Shown here: positions 2,378-42,064 of the stretch, in pieces
Layout: the number at the start of each line of letters is the position of its first letter
Numbering within the stretch: position 1 is the first letter of the stretch
Source of the DNA: Phycisphaerae bacterium
GTDB lineage: Bacteria > Planctomycetota > Phycisphaerae > Sedimentisphaerales > Anaerobacaceae
Reading direction: 5' to 3'
NCBI GenBank assembly: GCA_018007255.1
Contig: JAGOQT010000003.1
Coordinates: forward strand, 1-42,841
Length of the DNA stretch: 42,841 nucleotides
Notes under the pieces: model-generated
The model's input: the letters and a program-made list of their open reading frames with translations, nothing else
What the model was told of the DNA's origin: nothing
Database searches by the model: none
Made by a program: the position numbers and the translations under genes

Positions 2378-3592
2378 ATGCCGACGTATGAGTACATAGC
2401 CATCGCCCCCGATGGGAAGAAGATCAAGGGAACGCTGACGGCGGAAAGCCCGTTTGTGGCCCGCCGCCAGCTGCGGAATCGTAGTATCCACCCATCCTCC
2501 ATTACGGAAGTGACCGCCAGCACGGAACGGACACTGGCGGTCCTTTCCTTTCTCAAGAAGCCCAAGAGACGCCTGATCATCGAGGTCACCAAGCAGCTGG
2601 CGACCCTGCTCGGCTCGGGCATCAAACTGACCGAGGCCCTGTCGGTCATGGCCATCCAGACCCCCGATCCGCGGTTTCGCACCGTCCTGACCGAGGTGAG
2701 GGATCGGGTGATCACAGGGGAGGCCTTCGCAGAGACCCTCAAGGACTACAGCGAGTACTTCGATGTGATCTACGTGAGCATGGTCCGCGTCGGCGAGGTC
2801 ACCGGGAACCTCGGGGGGTGCCTGGCGACCCTGTCCGCCTTCATGGAGAAACGCCAGCGGGTCGAGTCCAAGGTGATCACGGCCATGATCTACCCGGCGG
2901 CCATGCTCGTCTTTTGCACGGTGGCCATCGTGATCCTGACCACCCGTGTCATCCCCAGCATCGGAGAGCAGATCAAGCGGTCCGGCCAGAAGCTGCCCTG
3001 GATCACCGAGCAGTTGATGGGGGTCGGGCACGTCCTGACGAGCGCCTGGGTCCTGGTCGTGATCGGCGCGATTGCAGGCCTGATCTGGGGGGTCCGGCGG
3101 TTTCTGAGGACCGAGCGAGGGGCGTACCTCCGGGACCGGACTCTCCTGTCCCTGCCCATCTTCGGACCCCTGGTCAAGCAGCGGGTGGTCTCCCGTTTTG
3201 CCTCGACCCTGTCCACCCTGCTGGGGTCCGGGTTGCCCATGGCCGAATCGCTGCGGGTCGTTGCGGAGGTCACCGGCAACGTCATCATGAGAAAGGCCGT
3301 CCAGATCGCCCGCGAGCGGATCCTGTCCGGTGCGGACATCGCCTCTCCCCTGCGAGACAGCGGCGTGATCAGCCCCGCCATCGCACACATGGTCGCCGTG
3401 GGAGAGAAGAGCGGAGAGCTGGAGACCATGCTCAAGGCGATCAGCGACGACCTGGAGAGCTCCACGGACATCGTCATCGAGCGGCTCAGCGCGGCCCTGG
3501 AGCCCGTAATCATCGTGGGCGTGGCCGCCATCGTCGGGCTGATCGCCTATGCCACGATCCTGCCCATCCTGAAGCTGTCCAAGATCAACTAG
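2378..3592 (+). CDS. gspF: GspF, type II secretion inner-membrane platform protein
   Basis: 404 residues, the normal length for GspF/PilC. It begins with the typical 'MPTYEYIAIAPDGKKIKG' start. Two T2SF cytoplasmic domains follow (about 75-195 and 275-400), each with the family pattern around 'KQLATLLGSGIKLTEAL' and 'ASTLSTLLGSGLPMAESL'. Hydrophobic segments lie near 170-190 ('AMIYPAAMLVFCTVAIVIL'), 220-240 and at the C-terminus ('VIIVGVAAIVGLIAYATIL'). The family forms the inner-membrane platform that couples the GspE ATPase to pseudopilin extraction. It lies 55 bp after gspE and 18 bp before gspG, consistent with one transcript. Confidence 0.95.
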   Translation: MPTYEYIAIAPDGKKIKGTLTAESPFVARRQLRNRSIHPSSITEVTASTERTLAVLSFLKKPKRRLIIEVTKQLATLLGSGIKLTEALSVMAIQTPDPRFRTVLTEVRDRVITGEAFAETLKDYSEYFDVIYVSMVRVGEVTGNLGGCLATLSAFMEKRQRVESKVITAMIYPAAMLVFCTVAIVILTTRVIPSIGEQIKRSGQKLPWITEQLMGVGHVLTSAWVLVVIGAIAGLIWGVRRFLRTERGAYLRDRTLLSLPIFGPLVKQRVVSRFASTLSTLLGSGLPMAESLRVVAEVTGNVIMRKAVQIARERILSGADIASPLRDSGVISPAIAHMVAVGEKSGELETMLKAISDDLESSTDIVIERLSAALEPVIIVGVAAIVGLIAYATILPILKLSKIN

Positions 3593-3610
3593 GTTAGGAG
3601 GTCATCCGAC

Positions 3611-4093
3611 ATGAGACGAAGGAAGCGTGTGACGAATCGAAGCGGCTTCACCATGATCGAACTGGTGGCGGTCCTGGTCATCCTCGGCCTGCTCGCAGCC
3701 GTGGTGGGCAGGAACGTCATGCAGGACATCGAGAGGGGCCGGCAGAACACCACCATGGCCAATCTCAAGATCCTGCACCAGGCCGTACTCCAGTTCAAGA
3801 TGGACACCGGGCGCTACCCCACAGCAGAAGAGGGATTGTCGGCCTTGGTTGTTCAGCCGAGCGACGTCTCGGGTTGGCAGCCCGGCGGGTATCTCACGGA
3901 GACCGCGATCCCCAGGGACGCCTGGGACAACGAGTTCATCTATGAGCTGTACCCGGAGAGCGGAAAGCCCTTTGTGATCAAGAGCCTTGGGGACGACCGC
4001 CAGGAGGGGGGCGAGGGGTACGCTGCGGACCTGTACAGTACCGACTCCGGCCTCCAGAAGGGCGTGGGCGGTCCGGGGACCGGCGGATCCTAG
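3611..4093 (+). CDS. gspG: GspG, major type II pseudopilin
   Basis: 160 residues. A basic leader ends in a prepilin peptidase site, 'RSG|FTMIELVAVLVILGLL', with the conserved Glu at +5 of the mature protein. The globular part has the GspG pattern 'DTGRYPTAEEGL' followed by 'AIPRDAWDNEFIY', a 'VIKSLGDDRQEGGEG' segment and Asp-rich residues near the C-terminus that in GspG form a calcium site. A strong Shine-Dalgarno (TAGGAGGTC, 11 nt before ATG) fits the major subunit being the most highly translated. GspG polymerises into the periplasmic pseudopilus. The prepilin peptidase (GspO) needed to process it is not in the window. Confidence 0.95.
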   Translation: MRRRKRVTNRSGFTMIELVAVLVILGLLAAVVGRNVMQDIERGRQNTTMANLKILHQAVLQFKMDTGRYPTAEEGLSALVVQPSDVSGWQPGGYLTETAIPRDAWDNEFIYELYPESGKPFVIKSLGDDRQEGGEGYAADLYSTDSGLQKGVGGPGTGGS

Positions 4094-4118
4094 GTCTTGA
4101 CAGGCCGTGAGGTAGCCC

Positions 4119-4688
4119 ATGCCCCGCGTGTGCCCGCCCCCGCAGCCCCGTGCCGGCTCCAGACCCGGACTGACCTTGATCGAGCTGATCGTCACGCTCT
4201 CGATCCTGGGCCTGTTCGTGTCGTGGACCACGGTGAATCTCTCCGGGGTCCTGCGACGGGCCACGTTCAGTGGAACGGCCGAGGAGTTCATGTCCGTCTT
4301 GCGCACCGCGGTCACGGCCGCGGCCGAGAGCGATCGCCGGTATGAGGTGGTCCTCGACCTCCCGCAGCAGACCTACCTCCTCCGGGAGATCACCACGCTG
4401 GACCTGGACGAGGCGATCCCGGATGAGGACATCCTCTTGGAGGGATCCTTTGGGCCCAAGTGTCGAGTCTCGTACGTCCAGTTCGACGACCTCGAGTCCA
4501 CATACGCAGATCGTGCCAAGTTCCGGGTCGGGCGGACCGGGTGGCAGTACGGAGGCAAGATCGTCCTCTTGGACGAAGAGGACCAGCCTCACACGATCTT
4601 GGTCCACCGCCTGAACCGGACCGTGGAACGGGTCGAGGGCGACGCGGCCCTCGCCCTGCCCATGGACAAGGAGTCGATGCTGTTTTGA
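4119..4688 (+). CDS. gspH: GspH-like minor pseudopilin
   Basis: 189 residues with a Pro-rich 17-residue leader and prepilin cleavage site 'RPG|LTLIELIVTLSILGLF', Glu at +5. The rest is a small globular domain ('FSGTAEEFMSVLRTAVTAAA', then beta-rich sequence) typical of GspH/FimT-like pseudopilins, where core conservation is low. The ribosome site GAGGT lies 6-7 nt before the ATG. It sits between gspG and gspI, the standard gspH position, and the assignment depends on that order plus the N-terminus. It would be a minor subunit joining GspG to the I-J-K tip complex. Confidence 0.85.
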   Translation: MPRVCPPPQPRAGSRPGLTLIELIVTLSILGLFVSWTTVNLSGVLRRATFSGTAEEFMSVLRTAVTAAAESDRRYEVVLDLPQQTYLLREITTLDLDEAIPDEDILLEGSFGPKCRVSYVQFDDLESTYADRAKFRVGRTGWQYGGKIVLLDEEDQPHTILVHRLNRTVERVEGDAALALPMDKESMLF

Positions 4689-4743
4689 AGGCCGGCCCGG
4701 GACACGGCGAAGACGGAGGAGCGGTGCTTGAGCGGAACTCCAA

Positions 4744-5520
4744 ATGAACGGACTTGAACGATCCATGTCGACTGAAGAGGGCCTTTCCCGCGGCCTGCGC
4801 CGCGGCTTCTCCCTCATGGAGACCCTGGTCGCGATCCAGATCCTGGCCCTGATGTGCACCGGGATCGTGGTGGTGATGAACCGTTGCACTGAGACCGTCA
4901 CGAACCTGAGCCGGGAAGGGGACGCCCTGGAGGAGGCCCGGGACCAGATGGAGCGGATCCTGGCCAGGGCCTCGGTCCAGGAGTCCGTCGAGTCCGGACC
5001 CTCCGAACGGTTTGCAGGCATCGAGTGGCAGACCGCGGTCGAGGTCTTCGACGAGCCCGTGGAGGGCACGACCTGGGCCCGGGCCGTATGCTCAAGTCAG
5101 TACGAGGACGCGAACGGCCAGACGCAGACCCTGACACTGACCTGCTGGCTCACCCGGCTGACCGAGGCCCAACTGGCCCAGCTCCGCGAGCTCGGCGGAG
5201 ATCAGGTCCTTGCAGACCTGGACGCCGCGGCCCGGTACGCCGCCGTGCCTCCGGAGACCCTCCAGCAGTGGCTGGAGAACGGCCTGGTCCTGACGGAAGA
5301 GGGGGCCTTTCTCAAGGCCAACCTGGACCTGTACAAGCGGACGAATGGACAACCCACTGAAGAGGAGAAGGCACAGCAGATCCGTTCACCGGAGGAACTG
5401 GAGGACCCACTCCAGGGCGGTCCGGCGCAGGCCCAGCCCGGCCAGGGGCAGGGACGGGGGGCGCCGGCCTCTCCCCCGCCCGCTCTTCCGCCTGGAATCC
5501 CGCAGAGGGGCATCCGATAA
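4744..5520 (+). CDS. gspI: GspI-like minor pseudopilin with long C-terminal tail
   Basis: 258 residues, about twice the usual GspI length. The cleavage site is 'RRG|FSLMETLVAIQILALM', Glu at +5, after a ~21-residue basic leader (a start at the next Met, 4765, is possible). The first ~140 residues resemble GspI. The remainder is an extension containing a helical stretch (about 155-215) and a Pro/Gln/Gly-rich tail ('PAQAQPGQGQGRGAPASPPP') with no recognised domain. GspI nucleates the pseudopilus tip with GspJ and GspK, both encoded next. The stop is 1 bp before the gspJ ATG, suggesting coupled translation. Confidence 0.82.
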   Translation: MNGLERSMSTEEGLSRGLRRGFSLMETLVAIQILALMCTGIVVVMNRCTETVTNLSREGDALEEARDQMERILARASVQESVESGPSERFAGIEWQTAVEVFDEPVEGTTWARAVCSSQYEDANGQTQTLTLTCWLTRLTEAQLAQLRELGGDQVLADLDAAARYAAVPPETLQQWLENGLVLTEEGAFLKANLDLYKRTNGQPTEEEKAQQIRSPEELEDPLQGGPAQAQPGQGQGRGAPASPPPALPPGIPQRGIR

Positions 5521-5521
5521 G

Positions 5522-6406
5522 ATGTCACACACGAGGCACAGGACGCATGCGACGACCGCCCACCACCGGGGGCAAGCGGACCCGGAGGCCCGGGCTCGCC
5601 CTTCCCACAGGAGGCCTTGCGCCCCGGGTTTCTCCCTCGTGGAGCTCCTGCTTTCCCTCGTCATCAGCGCGATGGTCATGGGCGCGGCGTTGGCCGTTCA
5701 TCAGCGGATGCAGCAGGCGGCCCTGGCGGTCCTGGGCCGGATCCGCTCCCCCAGTATCCCGTCCGAGGTCTTCCAGCTGATCCGCGAGGATCTGGACCAG
5801 GTCACCGCCTCGCCCGGGACCCGCATCCTGATCGACAACAAGCGGGAGAAGGGCTATCCCGTGGCCAGGCTCATCCTTCGCAAGACCATCACGGACAAGA
5901 AGAACGCGGAGCAGGTCTTCGAGGAGATCATCTGGCAGGCGACCTACGATATCGCAACCGATCGCGTCACCTTGTACCGCAGCCACAGCGGATTGGCCTT
6001 GGAGGACCGCCTGCTCGATCGTCGGCGCCGTTCCGTGGAGGCCCAGTATCCGTTCATACCCGTGTGCGGAGGACTCACCACGTTCACGGTCAGGGCCCCC
6101 CAAGGGGTGAACCTCCTGGAGCGGTGGGCCAGCCCCGCCCTGCCCACGGGGGTGGAGGTGACGATGTCGTTTGCCGACCCGATTCGGACTCCTCAAGGAG
6201 AACTGGCCATCCCTGAGTCCGACCAGATCACCCGCATGATCGCTGTGGACGCCATGCGGATGGTCCGATTCGAGGTCGTGGCACCGGATGCCAATGCCCC
6301 CGGCCAGGATGGAAACGCACCCGCTGCAGGGGCGCAGCGGAACGCGACAGGCCAGGACCCGAGACGTCCAGGATCACGGAGCGGCAATGCAGTGCCCACG
6401 AGATAG
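5522..6406 (+). CDS. gspJ: GspJ-like minor pseudopilin
   Basis: 294 residues from the ATG at 5522, one base after the gspI stop; the frame is open further upstream, but that would overlap gspI by ~175 bp. The leader is unusually long and basic (about 36 residues, His/Arg-rich) before 'CAPG|FSLVELLLSLVISAMVMG', Glu at +5. The body carries features of GspJ such as 'SEVFQLIREDLDQVTASPG' and a beta-rich domain ending near 'MRMVRFEVVAP', then a disordered Gly/Asn/Arg-rich tail. Its 3' end overlaps gspK by 20 bp. Role: tip complex subunit with GspI and GspK. Confidence 0.85.
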   Translation: MSHTRHRTHATTAHHRGQADPEARARPSHRRPCAPGFSLVELLLSLVISAMVMGAALAVHQRMQQAALAVLGRIRSPSIPSEVFQLIREDLDQVTASPGTRILIDNKREKGYPVARLILRKTITDKKNAEQVFEEIIWQATYDIATDRVTLYRSHSGLALEDRLLDRRRRSVEAQYPFIPVCGGLTTFTVRAPQGVNLLERWASPALPTGVEVTMSFADPIRTPQGELAIPESDQITRMIAVDAMRMVRFEVVAPDANAPGQDGNAPAAGAQRNATGQDPRRPGSRSGNAVPTR

Positions 6407-7703
6407 ACACCGGCGACCCACTGCGCCGGCGCAAGCCGGGCGTGCAGCGTCACGAGGTTCGGGTGTAGTCCTGCTCGTGACCCTCGTGCTCCTGGTCGCG
6501 CTCGCGGCCCTGGCCTACACCGTGACCAGCCGCGTAGCCGCCCACCGCCACCGGGCCCGCTATCTCATCGACCACGCCCGGGCCCGGTACGCGAGGGATT
6601 CGGCCCTTCGCTTCAGTGCGACCGTGGTCGAGGCCCTGGACCTGTCCCTGATCAGCCGGCCCAACGAGCCCGACTTCTCCGACCTGTTCCGCATGAGCGA
6701 TGCCCAGGTGGACGAGCTGCTGGGCCGGCACAAGGCCAGCCAGGAGGCGGCCGGAGGCCGAACGCCCCCTGGGGTGGCGGATGTCCACAGAGCGGACCCG
6801 AATGGGGCTGACGCAAACTCCCCGGCTCCGCGGGAAGACCTCCTTGCGGGGGAGGAGGAGTTTGTGCCAGGGCCCTACGGTCCGCCCTGGCCGCTCGTGA
6901 GCCAGCCCATCGAGTTCGAGATCGACGCCGTGCAGATCCGCATCGAGATCGAGGACGAGAACGCAAAGTACCCACTGGGGTGGATGCTCCTGGAGGAGCC
7001 CGCCCTGCAGCGCCCGGCCAATGCCGGGTTCGAGACCTTCTGCGAATGGATGGGGTGGACGCCCAGGGAGATCGATGCGGTCAAGGAGCAACTGACCGAG
7101 GTGTCCCAGGTCACCCGCTTCCAGCTGCAGCCGGACCAACCGGCCGCAGCCGCAGCCGCAGCGGGAGCGCGGGGCCGGGCGGTCACGCCGCAGTCGGCCC
7201 GGACAGCCACGGCAGGCGCCTCGCAACAGGCCGCCGCTCGAACGGCGTCGCCGGCCGAGCGACAGCGGAGCGACCTGGGCCGCCTGGTCCACAGCTCTCT
7301 CCTGGACCAGGATCTGTTGTCCAGGCCCACGATCGCCAGCGACCGTCGCCAGGAGTCTTTGTCCCGGTATGTGGGGCTGTGGGGCACGGCCCAGGTCAAC
7401 ATCAACACCGCGCCCCGCCACGTCCTAGAAGCGGCCCTGGCCTTTGTGGGGGACGCGGCACCCATGGCGGATGCCCTCATCCGTGAGAGGCAAAGGGCGC
7501 CCTTTAAGGACCTTGCCGACTTGAGAAAGAGGGTGACTCGGTATGCCGATGCCCTGGAGAAGGGCTCGCCGTACATCACCTTCGCCAGTACAACCTTTGC
7601 GGTCCGGATCACCGCGGTCTGCGGTTCGGCCCGGTCGCGCGGAGTGGCGGGCATGACGAGGCAAGGCTCGACCGTGAAGACGATCGGAGTCCTGTTCGAT
7701 TGA
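6387..7703 (+). CDS. gspK: GspK-like minor pseudopilin (tip subunit)
   Basis: 438 residues from the ATG at 6387, which has a GGAG ribosome site and overlaps the gspJ end. The N-terminus is 'SRG|SGVVLLVTLVLLVALAAL'. Like other GspK proteins it lacks the Glu at +5, which fits the tip position. The central region contains an Ala/Gln-rich low-complexity insert ('QPDQPAAAAAAAGARGRAV'). The C-terminal part has the helix-hairpin-helix-like segment 'VNINTAPRHVLEAAL', followed by 'APFKDLADLRKRV', the GspK SAM-like signature. GspK caps the pseudopilus. Two inserts (about residues 110-170 and 245-295) are longer than in proteobacterial GspK. Confidence 0.88.
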   Translation: MQCPRDRHRRPTAPAQAGRAASRGSGVVLLVTLVLLVALAALAYTVTSRVAAHRHRARYLIDHARARYARDSALRFSATVVEALDLSLISRPNEPDFSDLFRMSDAQVDELLGRHKASQEAAGGRTPPGVADVHRADPNGADANSPAPREDLLAGEEEFVPGPYGPPWPLVSQPIEFEIDAVQIRIEIEDENAKYPLGWMLLEEPALQRPANAGFETFCEWMGWTPREIDAVKEQLTEVSQVTRFQLQPDQPAAAAAAAGARGRAVTPQSARTATAGASQQAAARTASPAERQRSDLGRLVHSSLLDQDLLSRPTIASDRRQESLSRYVGLWGTAQVNINTAPRHVLEAALAFVGDAAPMADALIRERQRAPFKDLADLRKRVTRYADALEKGSPYITFASTTFAVRITAVCGSARSRGVAGMTRQGSTVKTIGVLFD

Positions 7704-9214: not shown

Positions 9215-9717
9215 GCAAAGACTTCTTCAGGAATCCCGTGTTCTTCTACGTCCTGATCCCCGTTGTGGCCGTGATCTGGCCGCTCCTTGTGTGGGGCCGG
9301 TACCTGCCCGCGGCCGAGAAGAACCTGGCCAAGTGGAAGGGTTGGTTCCCGGATGTCAACGCCCTGGCGGTGGAGGTCCTGCGACTCGAGCCGGACCGCC
9401 TGATCGAGGGGGCCCCTCAGGTGAAGGAGCAGTTCGACTACATGAGCGCGATCAGCCGCGCGGCCACGAAGTCGGGCATCCCGTCCGGCAGCTATCCCCA
9501 CACGACGGGCATGATGGCCAGGTCGTCCAAGGGGCAGGAGACCCAGACGGCCACGGTCACGCTCAAGAACGTGGACATCGTGCAGGCGTGCAAGTTCCTC
9601 TCGACCATCCAGCTTGACTGGCCCCACCTGGAGTGTACGAACATCAAACTGATCCAGGACAAGGGCACCGTGGACCGATGGACTGTCACCATCGGCCTGG
9701 AATACTTCTACAACTAG
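9211..9717 (+). CDS. gspM: GspM/PilO-like inner-membrane protein
   Basis: 168 residues. The start ATGA overlaps the gspL stop, and GGGGGAG lies 10 nt upstream. One N-terminal membrane helix (residues ~10-29, 'VFFYVLIPVVAVIWPLLVWG') is followed by a short helical stretch and a ferredoxin-like periplasmic fold near 110-168 ('TVTLKNVDIVQACKFL'). This is the bitopic layout of GspM/PilO, the partner of GspL. No obvious sequence motif names it, so the call depends on position after gspL and topology. It is the last recognisable secretion gene; gspC, gspN and gspO are not present here. Confidence 0.7.
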   Translation: MSKDFFRNPVFFYVLIPVVAVIWPLLVWGRYLPAAEKNLAKWKGWFPDVNALAVEVLRLEPDRLIEGAPQVKEQFDYMSAISRAATKSGIPSGSYPHTTGMMARSSKGQETQTATVTLKNVDIVQACKFLSTIQLDWPHLECTNIKLIQDKGTVDRWTVTIGLEYFYN

Positions 9718-9784
9718 GCCGCCGCGCCCCCTGTGCACCCGACCGGCTTTTGCCCTGGCTGTCCGGCTGGGTGCGCTGTAGGCT

Positions 9785-11170
9785 ATGGCCATGGGTGGAA
9801 GCCCTTCCCAAGACAGGCTCCAGGCCATCCGCCTGAAGATCAAGACCCTGCCCACAGGACCTGGCCTTTACGTGATGAAGGGCTCCGAGGACAAGGTCCT
9901 CTACATCGGCAAGGCCAAGAACCTCCGGTCCCGCGTGGCCAGCTACTTCCAGCCGGGCACCGACCTGGCGGCGTCGCGCGGTCCCAAGATCGTGGAGATG
10001 ATCGATCAGGTTCAGACCGTGGACGTGCTGCCCTGCGACAACGAGGTGGAGGCCATCCTTAAAGAGGCCCGTCTGATCAAGGATGTCCGGCCCCCGTACA
10101 ACACCGACCTGGTGGACGACAAGACCTTCCCGTACCTGGAGATCACCACAGCACAGGACTTCCCGGGGGTCTACGTCACCCGCAAGCCGGAGCCCGAGGG
10201 CAGCCGGCTCTTCGGCCCTTTTCCCAACGTCCGCGACCTGAGGGCGGCCCTGGGCCTCCTGCAGAGGATCTTCCGCTTCCGCACCTGCGCCCTGGAGATC
10301 CGGGACTGCGACCCGAAGCGGCGGTTCTTCAGACCCTGTCTCCTCTACAGCATCCGGCAGTGCACCGCGCCCTGTGCGGACCGGATCGAGCGGGCCGAGT
10401 ACCGCAGGGGCATCACGGACCTCCTCCGGTTCCTTCGCTCCAAGCGGTCCACGGTGCTCCGGCAGTGGAACCAGGAGATGGCTGAGGCCGCGGCCCGGCT
10501 CGAGTATGAGCGCGCGGCCCTGTACCGCGACCGGATCAGGCTCATCGAGCGACTCAGTGAGCGGGGTCTTCCCGAGGAGGACGTGCAGCCCGAGGTGTTC
10601 GCCTCTGACCCCACGGAGGCCCTGGTGGAACTCAAGGCCCTGCTCGACCTGGACCGGCAGGTCCGGATCATCGAGGGGATCGACATCGCCAACCTCGGCG
10701 GGTCCGAGGCGGTCGGCTCCCTGGTCAAGTTCATTGACGGCAGGCCGTTCAAGAGCGGGTATCGGCGGTTCCGGATCAAGACCGTGCAGGGCGCGGACGA
10801 TTACGCCATGATCGCCGAGGTCGTCCAGCGGAGGTACAGGCATGCGATCCAGGGCGAGGAGCTCTGGCCGGACGTGATCCTGATCGATGGAGGCATCGGC
10901 CAGCTCAGGGCAGCGGAGAAGGCCCTCGCCTCGGCCCTGGGGGCCGGCGAAGATCGGATTGCGGAGGCCGGCCGGACCTCCACGGTCGTGTCCCTGGCCA
11001 AGAAGGAGGAGCTCATCTACAGGCAGGGCTGGCCCAGGCCCCTGGACCTGCCTGCACGCTCGCTGGCCCTGAAGCTGCTCCAGTACGTCCGGGACGAGGC
11101 CCACAGGTTCGCCCAGCACTACCACCACCTGCTCCGGTCCAAGACCCTGCCGGACGCGGACAGACGCTGA
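9785..11170 (+). CDS. uvrC: Shortened UvrC-type excinuclease subunit
   Basis: 461 residues versus ~600 for typical UvrC, the nuclease of nucleotide excision repair that nicks on both sides of a lesion. Domains: GIY-YIG nuclease (GLY 27-29, YIG 40-42), a cysteine cluster (C168, C175, C184, C193, C197) like the UvrC iron-sulfur site, a UVR motif for UvrB contact (~228-258), and the RNase H-like endonuclease with candidate catalytic D300 ('EGIDIANLGG'), D368 ('LIDGG') and H440 ('RDEAHRFAQHYHH'). The usual segment between UVR and RNase H is almost absent, and the C-terminal tandem helix-hairpin-helix is missing. The frame is clean, so this is not decay. No clear ribosome site is visible; an ATG at 9791 is an alternative start, 6 nt after a TAGGCT that could be a -10. 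Confidence 0.88.
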   Translation: MAMGGSPSQDRLQAIRLKIKTLPTGPGLYVMKGSEDKVLYIGKAKNLRSRVASYFQPGTDLAASRGPKIVEMIDQVQTVDVLPCDNEVEAILKEARLIKDVRPPYNTDLVDDKTFPYLEITTAQDFPGVYVTRKPEPEGSRLFGPFPNVRDLRAALGLLQRIFRFRTCALEIRDCDPKRRFFRPCLLYSIRQCTAPCADRIERAEYRRGITDLLRFLRSKRSTVLRQWNQEMAEAAARLEYERAALYRDRIRLIERLSERGLPEEDVQPEVFASDPTEALVELKALLDLDRQVRIIEGIDIANLGGSEAVGSLVKFIDGRPFKSGYRRFRIKTVQGADDYAMIAEVVQRRYRHAIQGEELWPDVILIDGGIGQLRAAEKALASALGAGEDRIAEAGRTSTVVSLAKKEELIYRQGWPRPLDLPARSLALKLLQYVRDEAHRFAQHYHHLLRSKTLPDADRR

Positions 11171-11176
11171 CCTCCC

Positions 11177-11216
11177 GGGCCCGGCGAGGGGGCGTCTGCG
11201 TGGTGGCCCTCTTTTT
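11177..11216 (+). terminator. Possible weak intrinsic terminator after uvrC
   Basis: GGGCC (11177-11181) can pair with GGCCC (11205-11209), followed at once by CTTTTTC. The stem is short and the loop is 23 nt, and other pairings compete (GACGC 11163-11167 with GCGTC 11192-11196). The T-run directly after uvrC and before the sigma promoter is suggestive, no more. Confidence 0.25.
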
Positions 11217-11228
11217 CTTGCAGGCCGT

Positions 11229-11255
11229 GCAACAATCCCCGTGACGGCCCGTCTT
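11229..11255 (+). promoter_or_regulatory. Candidate ECF-type promoter of the sigma/anti-sigma operon
   Basis: GCAAC (11229-11233) is separated by 16 nt from CGTCTT (11250-11255). This matches the general ECF pattern, an AAC-containing -35 and a CGT(C)-containing -10, with normal spacing. It lies 22 nt before the sigma start codon, with the ribosome site between. ECF factors commonly activate their own operon, so autoregulation is inferred. Confidence 0.55.
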
Positions 11256-11277
11256 GAAGGATGAAAGGAGACACGGG

Positions 11278-11805
11278 TTGAACGGGACCGAGTCTCAGGG
11301 CAATGGCCGGACGTCGAACACGTCGGACCCCCAAGGGGCCTGCAGCACAGAGACCCTGTTTCGGCGACATAGTCCGGCCGTATGGGGCATCTGTTTGGCC
11401 CACGCCAGGAATGTCCATGACGGTGAGGATATCATGCAGGAGGTCTTTTTGAAGGCGTTTTCCAAGCTGGGTATGCTGCGGGACCCCCACAAGGCGAGAG
11501 CGTGGCTCCTCCAGATTGCCCGTAGGACCTGCATCGACTACCACCGCACGCGGACCAGCGCGGGCCCCATCCCAGAGGACCTCGCGGCCCCCAAGGACCA
11601 GACCCAAGACCGGATCGCCTCGCTCCATCGGGCGATCCTGCAGCTCCCGGACACGCTTCGGGAGCCCATCACGCTCTTCTATCTCAATGGACACAGCAGC
11701 GCAGGCGTGGCCAGGACACTGGGGATCAGCGAGACCGCGGCCCGCAGCCGGCTGGCCAGGGCCCGGCTCCGGCTCCATGAGATCCTGTCCGGGGACGAAC
11801 CATGA
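11278..11805 (+). CDS. ECF (sigma-70 family) RNA polymerase sigma factor
   Basis: 175 residues from a TTG at 11278, chosen because AAAGGAG lies 7 nt upstream; an upstream TTG at 11254 falls inside the candidate promoter. Region 2 is seen in 'LFRRHSPAVWGICLAHARN' through 'DGEDIMQEVFLKAFSKL' and 'KARAWLLQIARRTCIDYHR'. Region 4 is the helix-turn-helix 'SSAGVARTLGISETAARSRL'. Regions 1 and 3 are absent, as in ECF factors. The stop overlaps the start of the next gene (ATGA), which encodes a membrane anti-sigma, so the pair should be co-translated and act together. Target genes are unknown apart from the likely self-promoter. Confidence 0.92.
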   Translation: MNGTESQGNGRTSNTSDPQGACSTETLFRRHSPAVWGICLAHARNVHDGEDIMQEVFLKAFSKLGMLRDPHKARAWLLQIARRTCIDYHRTRTSAGPIPEDLAAPKDQTQDRIASLHRAILQLPDTLREPITLFYLNGHSSAGVARTLGISETAARSRLARARLRLHEILSGDEP

Positions 11806-14800
11806 ACACAGACAAGGCATGCCCCAACCTCCGTGACCATATCGCCGCCCTGGTGTTGGGTGAGCTCAAGACCGACACAGCGGAGAAGCTCCACAGACAC
11901 ATCCTGCGCTGCCAGGGGTGTCGCGGGCTCTACGAGTCTATGAGTTCAGAGGAGCGGGCGATCGAGCAGACCTTCGACGCACTTGCCCGGAGGGGCCGGG
12001 AGGTGGAGTCCGCGGCCGCCCAGAGGAACGCCACACGCGGTTCCAGTGGGTTGGAGGCCGTTCTCAGGGGGCTTCGATCGAGACGGGTGATCGGGCTCGC
12101 CGCAGCAGCGGCCGTCCTGGTCGTGACCGGCCTGGTCCTCTTCCTGGCCCTGCACAGCCGGGATCAAGGCACGGCTGGCCCCGCAGCCAGACAGGGCCAG
12201 AGGCCCCCGGATCCCCGACTGGGGCCTGCAGGGCAGGAGGACCAGGTCCTGGCCAGGGAACAGGCGGAGGTGCATCGACTGACCGCTGCCAGGGACGTGG
12301 ACGGGCTGCTCGAGCTGCTCGATTCGGGCCAGTGGCAGACCAAGATCGCAGTGGCCGCGGGTCTGGGCCGGATCGGAGACGCTGACGCAGTCCCTGCACT
12401 GAGCAGGTACGTGGGACAGTGGACCGGAGATCCTGCCGAGAACCCCTTTGGAGGGGCCGTGGATCAGATCACCCAGAGGACAACGATCGTCCAGCCGGGC
12501 GAAGCATCGGTCCAACCGACGACCCCTGCCTTGGAGGGCCGCTCGCAGACCGTGAAGGCCCCCCCCGCCACCCAAGCGGTTCTGTGCGGCCGCATCACCG
12601 ATGCCGTCACGGGTGAGCCAGTGACCGATGCCAGGGTGGAGATCTCGCTCAGTCGATACGCCACGGCCCAGGTGGATGCCAACGGCCTCTATCGGTTTGA
12701 CAAGATCGAGAGGGACGGCAGCTACAGGGTCAGGGTCTACTCCAAGGACCACGTGGGCATCACGGAGGACTCTCAGATCCCCGTCGTGGACCTCCGCACA
12801 GGCACCCAGACAATCAGGGACTTCCGGCTCGGCAAGGCCTGCCGGATCGTGGTCCAGGTCACGGACGAGCAGGGCACACCCATCAAGGACGTCGCCCTGC
12901 GGGTCAGCCCTACGGCGGATGCCCATGGAAGGGACATCGGCCGGGGCATCTACGGGCCGCCCAAGACAGACCCCAACGGGATCGTGCATCTGGGCGGACT
13001 CGCGCCCTCGGACCAGGCCTATCGGATCACAGCCACGCACGCAGTCGCGGGTCCCTGGGTTCAGCGGGGCGGCGAGAAGGTCCGCCAGTCCGTATGGGAC
13101 TATGCCCCCGGCCACGTGGCCGTGACCTTGAAGGACCCCAACGTGGTGGAGACGGCCGAGATCGTATTGCAGAAGGGAGTGGACGTGCAGGGCTACTGTG
13201 AGTATGCGGATGGCGTGCCCGCAAGCGGCCTGGGCATCTCCGCGCACCCGGATTGGTGGCTGTCCGCGGTCTATCCTCCCATCGTGGATATCGACCCGAA
13301 CGGCGGATTCACACTGCCCCAGATCGTGCCCGGCAGGTACACACTGCACGTCCACATCTCCACCGGCGACGGGACCGGGATCTCCTTCGGAGTCGGCCAG
13401 ATGGAGTGGCCGCTGCAGGACCCGCCATTGGTGGTGAAGGTGCCCAGGAAGTCGCCCCAGTCCCTGGCCAGTATCAGCGGCCGGATCACCTTCATCGGGA
13501 CCCCCGTACCTTCCTCCATGTCGATCGCGGCTGTGGGGCCGAGTCTGAGCGAGGGCGTGAGCCTCAGCCGGGGCCAGCGGGATTTCACGATCGACTCGCT
13601 GGAGCCCGGGACCTATGCCCTCCGCTTCAGCGGCCAGGGCATCCTGGAGAAGACGATCGAGGGGGTTGTGGCCCCGACGAGCGGTCTGGAGGTACAACTG
13701 GTCTGCGGTGAGAACGGCGGGAACGCCAGGCCCGTGCTGCAAGGGGTGGTCGTGCGCGCCGACACCAGGCAACCCGTGACCAGATTCAAGGCCCGTGCAG
13801 CCAAGGTCCGGCACCTCGGCGGGCCTTCCTATGTCCAGACCGATCGGTGGGCCGAGTTCACAAACGGCCAGGGCCAGTTCCGGATCGAGACCGTGGGGCC
13901 GGGTGTGTACCAGGTTCAGGTCGCGGCAGAGGGGATGGCCCCGGCGTGGAGCAGCGAGGTCAATACGGAGGAGAGCAGTCCCGTGACCGTGGCGATGACG
14001 ACCGGGGGCTCCATCGCAGGGATGGTCATGGATGAATACGGCCAGCCGGTGAAGGACGCAACAGTGATTCCACTGTCCAAGGCCTGCGGCACGATGCCCC
14101 ACATCAGGGACGTGTTTGTGTCCACGGAAGGTGCGGTCAAGACCGATGCCGGGGGAGTCTTCACCCTGGGTGCAATCCCTGCAGGTCTGGAGTCCATCCA
14201 GGTCGTGCACGACCGCTACTGCCATGCCGTCAAGAAGGACATCCCCGTGCAAGAGGGGCAAATGACCCAGGGCGTGGATGTGATCCTCTCTGGAGGCGGC
14301 TCCGTGCAAGGCCAGGTCTTCGACCCCCAGGGAAGGCCCGAGCCCGGTGTGACGCTCTATGTACAAGACGCCAGCGGGTACCTTATGGCAGGGGGCGACG
14401 AACAGGCCGGACGGCTCGCCACAGCAGTGACCGATGCGAACGGCCTCTATCGCGTGCAGCACCTGCCCGCGCAGGTCTGCTATGTGCAAAGGAGCAGCAC
14501 CCCTTGGGCCTCCGGCCAGGGCGTGGTCCGCAGGGCCGTGTTGCCTGAGGCAGGCACGGCCCGCCGCCTGGACTTCGGGGGCCTTCCCCTGGTGACAGGC
14601 CAGGTCGTGGTCCGGGGGATGCCCCTGACCGACGCCAGGGTCTCTCTGGGCGACCCTCTGTCCCGCTCCTCGGGCATATTCGAGTGCGCGGGCATGACCG
14701 ACGGCCAGGGCCGGTTCAGGCTCTCGGGCGTGCCTGCGGGCCGGTACGGCCTCTACTACGAGCATCCGACACAGCGAGGGGATTGGATCAAGGCCGCCAC

Positions 14801-15656
14801 GATGGAGACCTCCGGCCAGGACCTGGATCTGGGCATGGTGCCCGGACCCGGCGCAGAGGTGAGGATCCATGTGAACGCAGCGGATCCGGGCCGGCTCACC
14901 CAACCTGGCCGGGTGGTCCTCGAGGAAGGAACCCTGTTCTGGGGTCCCGCGAGCGGGCCTGTCGAGTCGCCCACCCAGGCGGGTGCCCCCTATGTGGCCA
15001 GGGGAGTCCAGCCCGGCACACACACGGCCGTGGTGCATCTGTCGGGCCGCCTCATGCTGCGAAGAGAGATCACGGTCCAGGCAGGACAGCGGGAACTGGA
15101 TGTCACCGTTCAGGTCCCCGCAGGCACTGCCGTGCTCACAGGAGACCTCAAGAGCGATGGCCAGCAGACCCTGGTCCTGATCCGCTCCGACGGCCAGGTC
15201 ATGGCCTACGTGTACGCCGAAGGTGGGCCTCAGTACCGGATCGAGGGTCTGCCTGCAGGGACATACTCGATCTGTAGTGCCCCCGCACAGGACGACAAGG
15301 CCCCCCTGCTCACCATCAACCTGGCCGAGGGCCAGGCCAAGAGGATCGATATCGATACCTCCCAGTGGACCTCTGCCCCGGTCGGGCTCCTGTTCGTCCA
15401 GGTCGTAGCCCCTGACGGCATCCCATCGACCACGTCCCGGGCCTGGCTGGAGGGCCTCGGCAAGAGGATCGAGCCTGTACAGGGCCTGAGTGAGGGGCAC
15501 ACGTTTGCTGCGCAACCCGGCCTGTACATGCTCCACGTGACCCAGCCGGGTCTTGTGCCGCATCGCGGTTCGGTCGAGGTCCTGCCTGCAGATCTGAGCC
15601 GGGGGGGCCTCCAATACAAGAGGTCGCCCGTCCTGGTCCGGCTCTCGGCCCAGTAG
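11802..15656 (+). CDS. Giant membrane anti-sigma factor with repeated carboxypeptidase-regulatory-like domains
   Basis: 1284 residues. The N-terminus has an anti-sigma zinc motif Hx3Cx2C (H33, C37, C40; 'HILRCQGC'), which in the ZAS family binds the cognate sigma. One transmembrane helix is at ~95-118 ('VIGLAAAAAVLVVTGLVLFL'). A HEAT-like segment follows (~165-205). From ~258 to the end there are repeated Ig-like carboxypeptidase-regulatory-like units, recognisable by starts such as 'LCGRITDAVTGEPVTDARV', 'LQGVVVRADTRQPV', 'SIAGMVMDEYGQPVKDATV' and 'SVQGQVFDPQGRPEPGVTL'. Predicted topology puts the ZAS domain in the cytoplasm and ~1150 residues outside. No second helix or peptidase motif was seen. 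A sensor role for the outer part is inference. Confidence 0.85.
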   Translation: MNTDKACPNLRDHIAALVLGELKTDTAEKLHRHILRCQGCRGLYESMSSEERAIEQTFDALARRGREVESAAAQRNATRGSSGLEAVLRGLRSRRVIGLAAAAAVLVVTGLVLFLALHSRDQGTAGPAARQGQRPPDPRLGPAGQEDQVLAREQAEVHRLTAARDVDGLLELLDSGQWQTKIAVAAGLGRIGDADAVPALSRYVGQWTGDPAENPFGGAVDQITQRTTIVQPGEASVQPTTPALEGRSQTVKAPPATQAVLCGRITDAVTGEPVTDARVEISLSRYATAQVDANGLYRFDKIERDGSYRVRVYSKDHVGITEDSQIPVVDLRTGTQTIRDFRLGKACRIVVQVTDEQGTPIKDVALRVSPTADAHGRDIGRGIYGPPKTDPNGIVHLGGLAPSDQAYRITATHAVAGPWVQRGGEKVRQSVWDYAPGHVAVTLKDPNVVETAEIVLQKGVDVQGYCEYADGVPASGLGISAHPDWWLSAVYPPIVDIDPNGGFTLPQIVPGRYTLHVHISTGDGTGISFGVGQMEWPLQDPPLVVKVPRKSPQSLASISGRITFIGTPVPSSMSIAAVGPSLSEGVSLSRGQRDFTIDSLEPGTYALRFSGQGILEKTIEGVVAPTSGLEVQLVCGENGGNARPVLQGVVVRADTRQPVTRFKARAAKVRHLGGPSYVQTDRWAEFTNGQGQFRIETVGPGVYQVQVAAEGMAPAWSSEVNTEESSPVTVAMTTGGSIAGMVMDEYGQPVKDATVIPLSKACGTMPHIRDVFVSTEGAVKTDAGGVFTLGAIPAGLESIQVVHDRYCHAVKKDIPVQEGQMTQGVDVILSGGGSVQGQVFDPQGRPEPGVTLYVQDASGYLMAGGDEQAGRLATAVTDANGLYRVQHLPAQVCYVQRSSTPWASGQGVVRRAVLPEAGTARRLDFGGLPLVTGQVVVRGMPLTDARVSLGDPLSRSSGIFECAGMTDGQGRFRLSGVPAGRYGLYYEHPTQRGDWIKAATMETSGQDLDLGMVPGPGAEVRIHVNAADPGRLTQPGRVVLEEGTLFWGPASGPVESPTQAGAPYVARGVQPGTHTAVVHLSGRLMLRREITVQAGQRELDVTVQVPAGTAVLTGDLKSDGQQTLVLIRSDGQVMAYVYAEGGPQYRIEGLPAGTYSICSAPAQDDKAPLLTINLAEGQAKRIDIDTSQWTSAPVGLLFVQVVAPDGIPSTTSRAWLEGLGKRIEPVQGLSEGHTFAAQPGLYMLHVTQPGLVPHRGSVEVLPADLSRGGLQYKRSPVLVRLSAQ

Positions 15657-41659: not shown

Positions 41660-42064
41660 TCAGTACTGGATCGCGCGAGGCAGATCCTTGGCCCCCTTGA
41701 TCCAGTCCTCAATCTGGGACTCGACCGGGACCCTGCGCACAAGCTTCTTCTCCTTGTTGACGTCGGCCAGGGCCTGGGCCAGGTTGGCCGCATTGCGTTG
41801 GGCCAATTCGCGGACGCTGTCCACACCGGCCGCCTCGAGCAGCTCGGCATACTGAGTCCGGATCCCCTTGATACGGAACAGGTCTGCGTGATTGACCCAC
41901 CTGAGGATGAGCTTGTCGCTGATGCCGGTCTTCTGTACCAGGGTCTGGCGTCCTTCCGGCGTCGCACCCTTCTCCAGAAGATCGGCCGTGGTGACCACGC
42001 CCGCCTGGCTCAGTTTCTCCGCATACACGGGGCCGACCCCCTCGATCTCCTCTACCTTCGCCAT
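41660..42064 (-). CDS. DUF4332-type helix-hairpin-helix protein
   Basis: 134 residues, starting 'MAKVEEIEGVGPVYAEKL', the helix-hairpin-helix opening of DUF4332 proteins. A second repeat is seen in 'LFRIKGIRTQYAELLEAAGV'. The fold is an all-helical tandem HhH that in other proteins binds DNA, so a nucleic-acid role is possible but not shown. A good ribosome site (AAGGAGA, 5 nt before the ATG) is present. It stands alone between the secreted protein (143 bp away) and the ComEC-like gene (98 bp away), same strand. It lacks any catalytic motif. Confidence 0.85.
   Translation of the reverse strand: MAKVEEIEGVGPVYAEKLSQAGVVTTADLLEKGATPEGRQTLVQKTGISDKLILRWVNHADLFRIKGIRTQYAELLEAAGVDSVRELAQRNAANLAQALADVNKEKKLVRRVPVESQIEDWIKGAKDLPRAIQY

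Follow-up and report, generated by a model that had tools for sequence, protein, structure and literature searches.

UvrC is listed in PMC1564403 with the domain order C4-UvrBb-EndoV-HhH, and the available portion of a review describes the HhH as necessary for making the 5' incision (PMC7835731). Departures from this order are described from Helicobacter: the middle region of UvrC is missing in H. felis and H. suis, and in the Helicobacter UvrCs aligned in the accessible part of that report the HhH is truncated or missing (PMC9426483). A mutation of the HhH did not markedly raise the UV sensitivity of H. pylori, whereas catalytic mutations raised it, and the same source says that the Fe-S loop motif helps to form UvrC-dsDNA complexes (PMC9426483). 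Among the variants in the available portion of PMC1564403, an EndoV (RNase H) form without HhH is not seen, and planctomycetes are not mentioned in its main text; nor did we find any report of a short planctomycete UvrC in the openly licensed literature. Such a protein is encoded in the stretch of 42,841 nucleotides analyzed here (the window), which is contig C189 of a planctomycete draft genome of 3.98 Mb in 457 contigs and 87% completeness.

Domain architecture of the compact UvrC

The features of the gene and the one further window feature that is relevant for its interpretation are as follows.

9785..11170, + strand: compact uvrC, 461 codons plus stop, one frame from ATG to stop, with profile matches
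9863..10102, + strand: GIY-YIG nuclease domain (3' incision), residues 27-106, Pfam PF01541
10286..10375, + strand: Cys4 cluster C168, C185, C193 and C197 ([4Fe-4S] site of UvrC), by conservation
10292..10306, + strand: insertion of five residues (170-174) into the Cys loop, giving C-x16-C, a mark of the short clade
10454..10552, + strand: UVR motif (UvrB-binding), residues 224-256, Pfam PF02151
10553..10636, + strand: short linker replacing the PF22920 domain, residues 257-284
10637..11113, + strand: RNase H-like nuclease domain (5' incision), residues 285-443, Pfam PF08459
11114..11170, + strand: end of the protein with no HhH behind it, by HhH profile and all-frame searches
41660..42064, - strand: stand-alone DUF4332 protein, PF14229 at 147 bits plus an HHH_5 match

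The preliminary description, made from the letters alone, had seen the GIY-YIG domain, the cysteine cluster, the UVR motif and the RNase H-like triad, and profiles and mapped residues agree with it. PF01541 is matched with 26.6 bits (cut-off 22.6), PF02151 with 34.1 bits and PF08459 (UvrC_RNaseH_dom) with 147.5 bits, while two further Pfam rows fall far under their own cut-offs. The UvrC equivalog model TIGR00194 (NCBIfam) gives 362.4 bits against a cut-off of 285.45, and the match in the genome covers model positions 4-230 and 365-537 of 574, with positions 231-364 and the end missing. The GIY-YIG residues Y29/Y40/R50/E87/N106 correspond to Y21/Y32/R42/E74/N93 of E. coli UvrC, the cysteines C168/C185/C193/C197 to C154/C166/C174/C178, and the RNase H residues D300/D339/D368/H440 to D399/D438/D466/H538; the assignment of the Cys4 cluster as a [4Fe-4S] site follows the available part of PMC9426483. 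In fold comparisons, the GIY-YIG domain matched 1yd6 (VIA Z 15.3) and the RNase H-like domain 8b0q (VIA Z 23.5), and matches to Argonaute and endonuclease V folds (Z 8.9-10.4) reflect the shared RNase H fold. As the linker residues 260-273 of the structure model have a pLDDT below 50 and the pTM is 0.52, an arrangement of the domains is not claimed.

The two missing parts noted in the preliminary description are likewise borne out. E. coli UvrC in the same Pfam search additionally matches PF22920 at 251-368 and HhH at 557-608, whereas in the window protein PF22920 has no match and no HhH family matches at E 1. The part that has gone between UVR and RNase H is this one domain, PF22920 (“UvrC Ribonuclease H-like domain”), and 45 residues lead from UVR residue 255 to the first catalytic aspartate. 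The reading frame is clean, as had been stated: an HhH family was found neither in a scan of six ORFs that lie across, antisense to, or just past uvrC, nor with the HhH piece of E. coli UvrC searched against all frames of 11000-12500, a search that recovered the HhH in 4/4 long-UvrC control loci. The antisense strand of uvrC (9686-11128, - strand) is itself open over 480 codons and has no Pfam match at E 0.1, which is probably an effect of codon composition.

Type II secretion genes (T2SSF, T2SSG, T2SSK and an N_methyl pilin-like gene) lie upstream of uvrC at 2378-7703 on the + strand, and the next + strand gene after uvrC encodes an ECF sigma factor. Its frame shares four bases with that of a 1284-residue protein with four CarboxypepD_reg stretches (11254-15656, + strand), and the two may be a sigma factor and a large protein linked to it.

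The short UvrC forms one planctomycete clade

In a sample of 246 genomes drawn evenly across Planctomycetota, the phylum that the survey covers, PF08459 was detected in 228 and PF22920 in 138 genomes; both were present in 137, PF08459 only in 91, PF22920 only in one and neither in 17 genomes. PF22920 is thus absent in 91 of the 228 genomes with PF08459. A PF22920 non-match is no proof by itself, as the T. maritima control is also without a match (PF22920 was found in 11/12 control genomes having the UvrC RNase H domain), and therefore 29 of the 91 genomes, including that of the window, were fetched for sequence comparison. All 29 encode the short form; the other 62 are known by the PF22920 non-match alone. 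The 17 sampled genomes of the window's class (its own, five of the order and 11 others) all have PF08459 once and PF22920 not at all. A search among relatives gave TIGR00194 matches in 61/61 genomes, 55 of them above the cut-off, and the uvrC frames with both halves among the matches listed have 437-524 codons; this listing also holds fragments cut by contig ends and other proteins, and a whole uvrC was not seen among the matches listed for five genomes (G022, G026, G029, G038 and G053). Among the best 80 of 580 public loci encoding a relative, the titles nearly always name Phycisphaerae, Sedimentisphaerales or another group of Planctomycetota; Alphaproteobacteria and “uncultured bacterium” each occur once as a title. 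Within the sampled family, order and class, UvrC usually has the short form, which is also present in families outside the class; these would include Planctomycetia.

For comparison, 124 short sequences (window included) were aligned with 44 long ones (43 of the phylum and E. coli), each sequence being assigned according to which of two proteins, that of the window or E. coli UvrC, it matched better in BLAST, regardless of its length. Rows of the window itself (L001, L191), rows at contig ends (L009, L052, L122, L151, L202), copies (L029 and L031, of L057 and L051) and rows with an identical core were dropped, and two rows of genome G080 (L117, L148), in which PF22920 is present and HhH absent, were left out of the counts and treated apart. 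The two groups differ in several marks. UVR residue 255 and the first RNase H aspartate are separated by 44-47 residues in 124/124 short and by 154-162 in 44/44 long sequences. The first Cys loop is x16 in all 124 short forms, and in the long ones x11 (42/44, E. coli included), with x12 and x9 once each. Two positions after the first RNase H aspartate, alanine stands in 123/124 short and serine in 44/44 long sequences (D-I-A versus D-I-S), and residue 448, eight after the catalytic histidine, is histidine in 122/124 short and arginine in 41/44 long sequences. The RNase H domain of the short forms is without six residues at E. coli 499-504, and the short forms carry two one-residue insertions. 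The Cys loop has 7-14 residues in eight UvrCs of other phyla, of which 8/8 have the arginine and 7/8 the serine.

In a tree built from 59 rows of short and 30 of long forms (columns filled in less than 60% of the rows were omitted), the short forms make one clade with 100/100 support, so that the short form needs one change; the root is E. coli alone, a long branch. The alignment and tree are consistent with a single ancient loss early in the history of a large planctomycete clade. The stem of this clade has 0.91 changes per column, and the changes of the clade all fall on it and may be unrelated to each other; since all differences lie on one stem, cause and shared ancestry cannot be told apart. 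The short architecture of the window protein is repeated in 124/124 short sequences, itself included, and it is also present in genomes of a single contig (for example G012, G039, G044 and G058). Among 98 pairs of at least 80% identity, the 12 closest have dN of 0.015-0.073 and dS of 0.23-1.37, which gives a dN/dS of about 0.04-0.16, with some sequences recurring among the pairs; in these pairs, the short uvrC evolves under purifying selection. The earlier view of a “designed short form” was right in that the short form is genuine, but “designed” should be put differently, as the form is inherited and clade-wide rather than peculiar to the genome of the window.

It could be asked whether longer tails of some short forms hide an HhH. 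These tails are rich in K, R and P by eye, and the HhH family was matched in 0/64 members of the short-form set A1 at E 0.01 and in 0/7 further short forms that are not in A1, among them those with the longest tails (L085 and L102), so that this idea was abandoned.

A separate loss of the HhH appears to have taken place in each of two further planctomycete genomes, G066 and G080, judging from one draft genome each. Their UvrCs, with stop-to-stop frames of 556 and 550 codons, retain PF22920 and terminate directly behind the RNase H domain; the HhH piece of E. coli found nothing in any frame of the stretches fetched from both genomes, while the long controls were positive in 4/4 cases. In the tree, the presence of the HhH needs three changes, and the starred branches force these three. 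As the HhH-less proteins of G066 and G080 are on separate branches, the HhH seems dispensable more than once, and as they keep the x11 loop, the serine and the arginine, the marks of the short clade are not tied to the loss of the HhH itself.

Copy number and partners

A search of the window's own genome (87% complete) for a second, full-length UvrC gave none: its single PF08459 match is the uvrC at 9785-11170. A second uvrC could still lie in the missing part, but exactly one PF08459 match is found in each of the 17 class genomes that the phylum sample contains, 16 of which are listed as 97-100% complete, and the compact protein is apparently the only UvrC. Its partners are in place, with UvrA above the cut-off in 20/20 genomes tested, the window's own included (a 979-codon frame on contig C77), and UvrB above the cut-off in the same number (688 codons on C449 in the own genome). 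The C-terminal end of UvrB is kept, the match reaching model position 657-658 of 658, in 18 genomes in one piece and in two genomes in two pieces. A change in UvrA or UvrB that travels with the short UvrC was considered and dropped, as the open-frame lengths of both overlap between genomes with short and long UvrC.

Two further observations were made in this set of 20 genomes. Six of them (G067, G075, G105, G114, G180 and G223) have two head-to-tail copies of UvrA in frames of 1928-2375 codons; G180 and G223 have a short and the other four a long UvrC. In addition, uvrB adjoins uvrC in three of the six long-UvrC genomes (G067, G105 and G114, not G075, G109 and G196), while in the 14 short-UvrC genomes uvrB and uvrC are on different contigs or at least tens of kilobases apart.

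Mode of action

We consider it likely that this protein, the sole orthologous UvrC detected, is the dual-incision NER nuclease of its organism as predicted from its sequence, in a compact form that arose once in a planctomycete clade. UvrB at the lesion would position UvrC via the UVR contact, the GIY-YIG domain would then make the 3' cut, and the RNase H domain would make the 5' cut without the clamp of an HhH. The contact to DNA would rest on the remaining surfaces, perhaps on the enlarged Fe-S loop and the more basic RNase H domain. The mean net charge of the RNase H domain is +2.3 in the short and -0.2 in the long forms (a plain mean, uncorrected for kinship), and both this basic shift and the Cys loop, which is longer and of fixed length, are candidates for holding the DNA. 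As compensation for the lost domains, however, the case is weak: the loop length varies in other phyla, the loop of the short forms is slightly less basic (+1.67 versus +2.16 in the long forms), and the changes share one stem. A tentative proposal, which we rate as rather less probable than its opposite, is that the enlarged Fe-S loop and the surface of the RNase H domain took over the grip on DNA that the HhH and the middle domain had provided. With a spacing of only about 45 residues from UVR to the first aspartate of the RNase H site, the cut geometry may then differ, and if the proposal is true, the excised length or the range of lesions may differ from E. coli.

Alternatively, the short UvrC could make one cut only, or work mainly outside NER, and another nuclease would complete the excision. 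The middle domain is gone, and so is the HhH, which the available portion of PMC7835731 considers necessary for the 5' cut of the enzymes studied, and close to the RNase H site there are the exchanges of serine to alanine (two after the first aspartate) and arginine to histidine (eight after the histidine) as well as the deletion of the six residues at E. coli 499-504. The catalytic residues nonetheless are kept: all 124 short sequences have the four RNase H residues and the four cysteines, and each of the five GIY-YIG residues is present in 123 or 124 of them, and thus both sites are probably in use. A second PF08459 protein was found in none of the 17 class genomes sampled, and we think that this alternative is unlikely.

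Still less probable, in our view, is that the DNA-binding part is given in trans by an HhH protein, for example the DUF4332 protein at 41660-42064, as the preliminary description had suggested. That the window encodes a free HhH protein was correct, and it is a stand-alone DUF4332 protein with HHH_5, 30 kb off uvrC. Its proposed role found no support in the genome-wide test of an HhH helper, which was made with DUF4332: this family is present in 17/91 genomes without PF22920 (short) and in 24/137 with PF22920 (long; Fisher p 0.86, 228 genomes), and 14/17 genomes of the class are without it, while in one of the three positive class genomes the match covers only 43 model positions. Moreover, in 14 of the 17 DUF4332-bearing short genomes the domain lies in stop-to-stop frames of 512-1422 codons and is not stand-alone. 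A conserved neighbor is no better candidate for a helper, as the largest cluster, the top shared neighbor family, is found at only 17 of 69 short-uvrC loci (68 fetched and the window); the flanks extended to at most 3 kb, with at least 2.4 kb on both sides in 43 of the 68 fetched loci, and the window locus is in none of the neighbor clusters listed.

A second UvrC-like protein of 368-483 codons was seen at loci L230-L234 and L241-L254, in 19/24 genomes that belong to other families (f2-f7) of the window's order. It has a degenerate GIY-YIG domain (two tyrosines lost, by eye), the Cys cluster and a UVR-like stretch, is without an RNase H match, and its profile aligns to UvrC from the N-terminal end as far as the beginning of the middle domain. 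Elsewhere in the phylum sample it is strong (E 2e-55 or better) only in G136, G254 and G275 of family f9. It was seen neither in the genome of the window nor among the matches listed for the window's family, and as a source of the middle domain it cannot be the general answer.

Finally, a frameshift, assembly error or pseudogene could be suspected in a draft of 457 contigs, but with the same architecture in 124/124 short sequences, some out of single-contig genomes, with dN well under dS and with the HhH missing from the frames beside and after the gene, this artefact is already refuted by the clade-wide conservation.

We regard a planctomycete clade that extends over several classes without both domains as a natural domain-deletion experiment on UvrC, in which the linker length and the Cys-loop length are fixed across the clade that lacks the HhH and the middle domain. 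A compact UvrC may be easier to express and to solve whole, and in the annotation of planctomycete genomes, the length of UvrC by itself says little about whether the gene is broken.

Comparison with known UvrC-like proteins

Among the related proteins, Cho (PRK10545) and the DEDD-exonuclease/Cho fusions (PRK07883) have the GIY-YIG domain and the Cys cluster in common with the window protein, but its matches to them are weaker. Cho is without an RNase H (EndoV-like) domain according to the available part of PMC1564403, whereas the window protein has one with complete residues, so that it is not a Cho. For the UvrCs of Helicobacter, the accessible text of PMC9426483 reports that the middle region is likewise lost in H. 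felis and H. suis and the HhH lost or truncated, with a single HhH in H. pylori. They belong to another phylum, however, and the planctomycete form is common to many families; the losses in the two groups are probably independent. The HhH-less UvrCs of G066 and G080 (L235 and L238) end directly past the RNase H domain as the window protein does, but differ from it in having PF22920 and C-x11-C and in their separate branches of the tree. With the orthodox UvrCs of TIGR00194, such as those of E. coli, T. maritima and D. radiodurans, the window protein has in common the GIY-YIG domain, the Cys4 cluster, the UVR motif and the RNase H residues D-D-D-H, and it is set apart from them by the lack of PF22920 and of the tandem HhH, by the x16 Cys loop and by the short linker.
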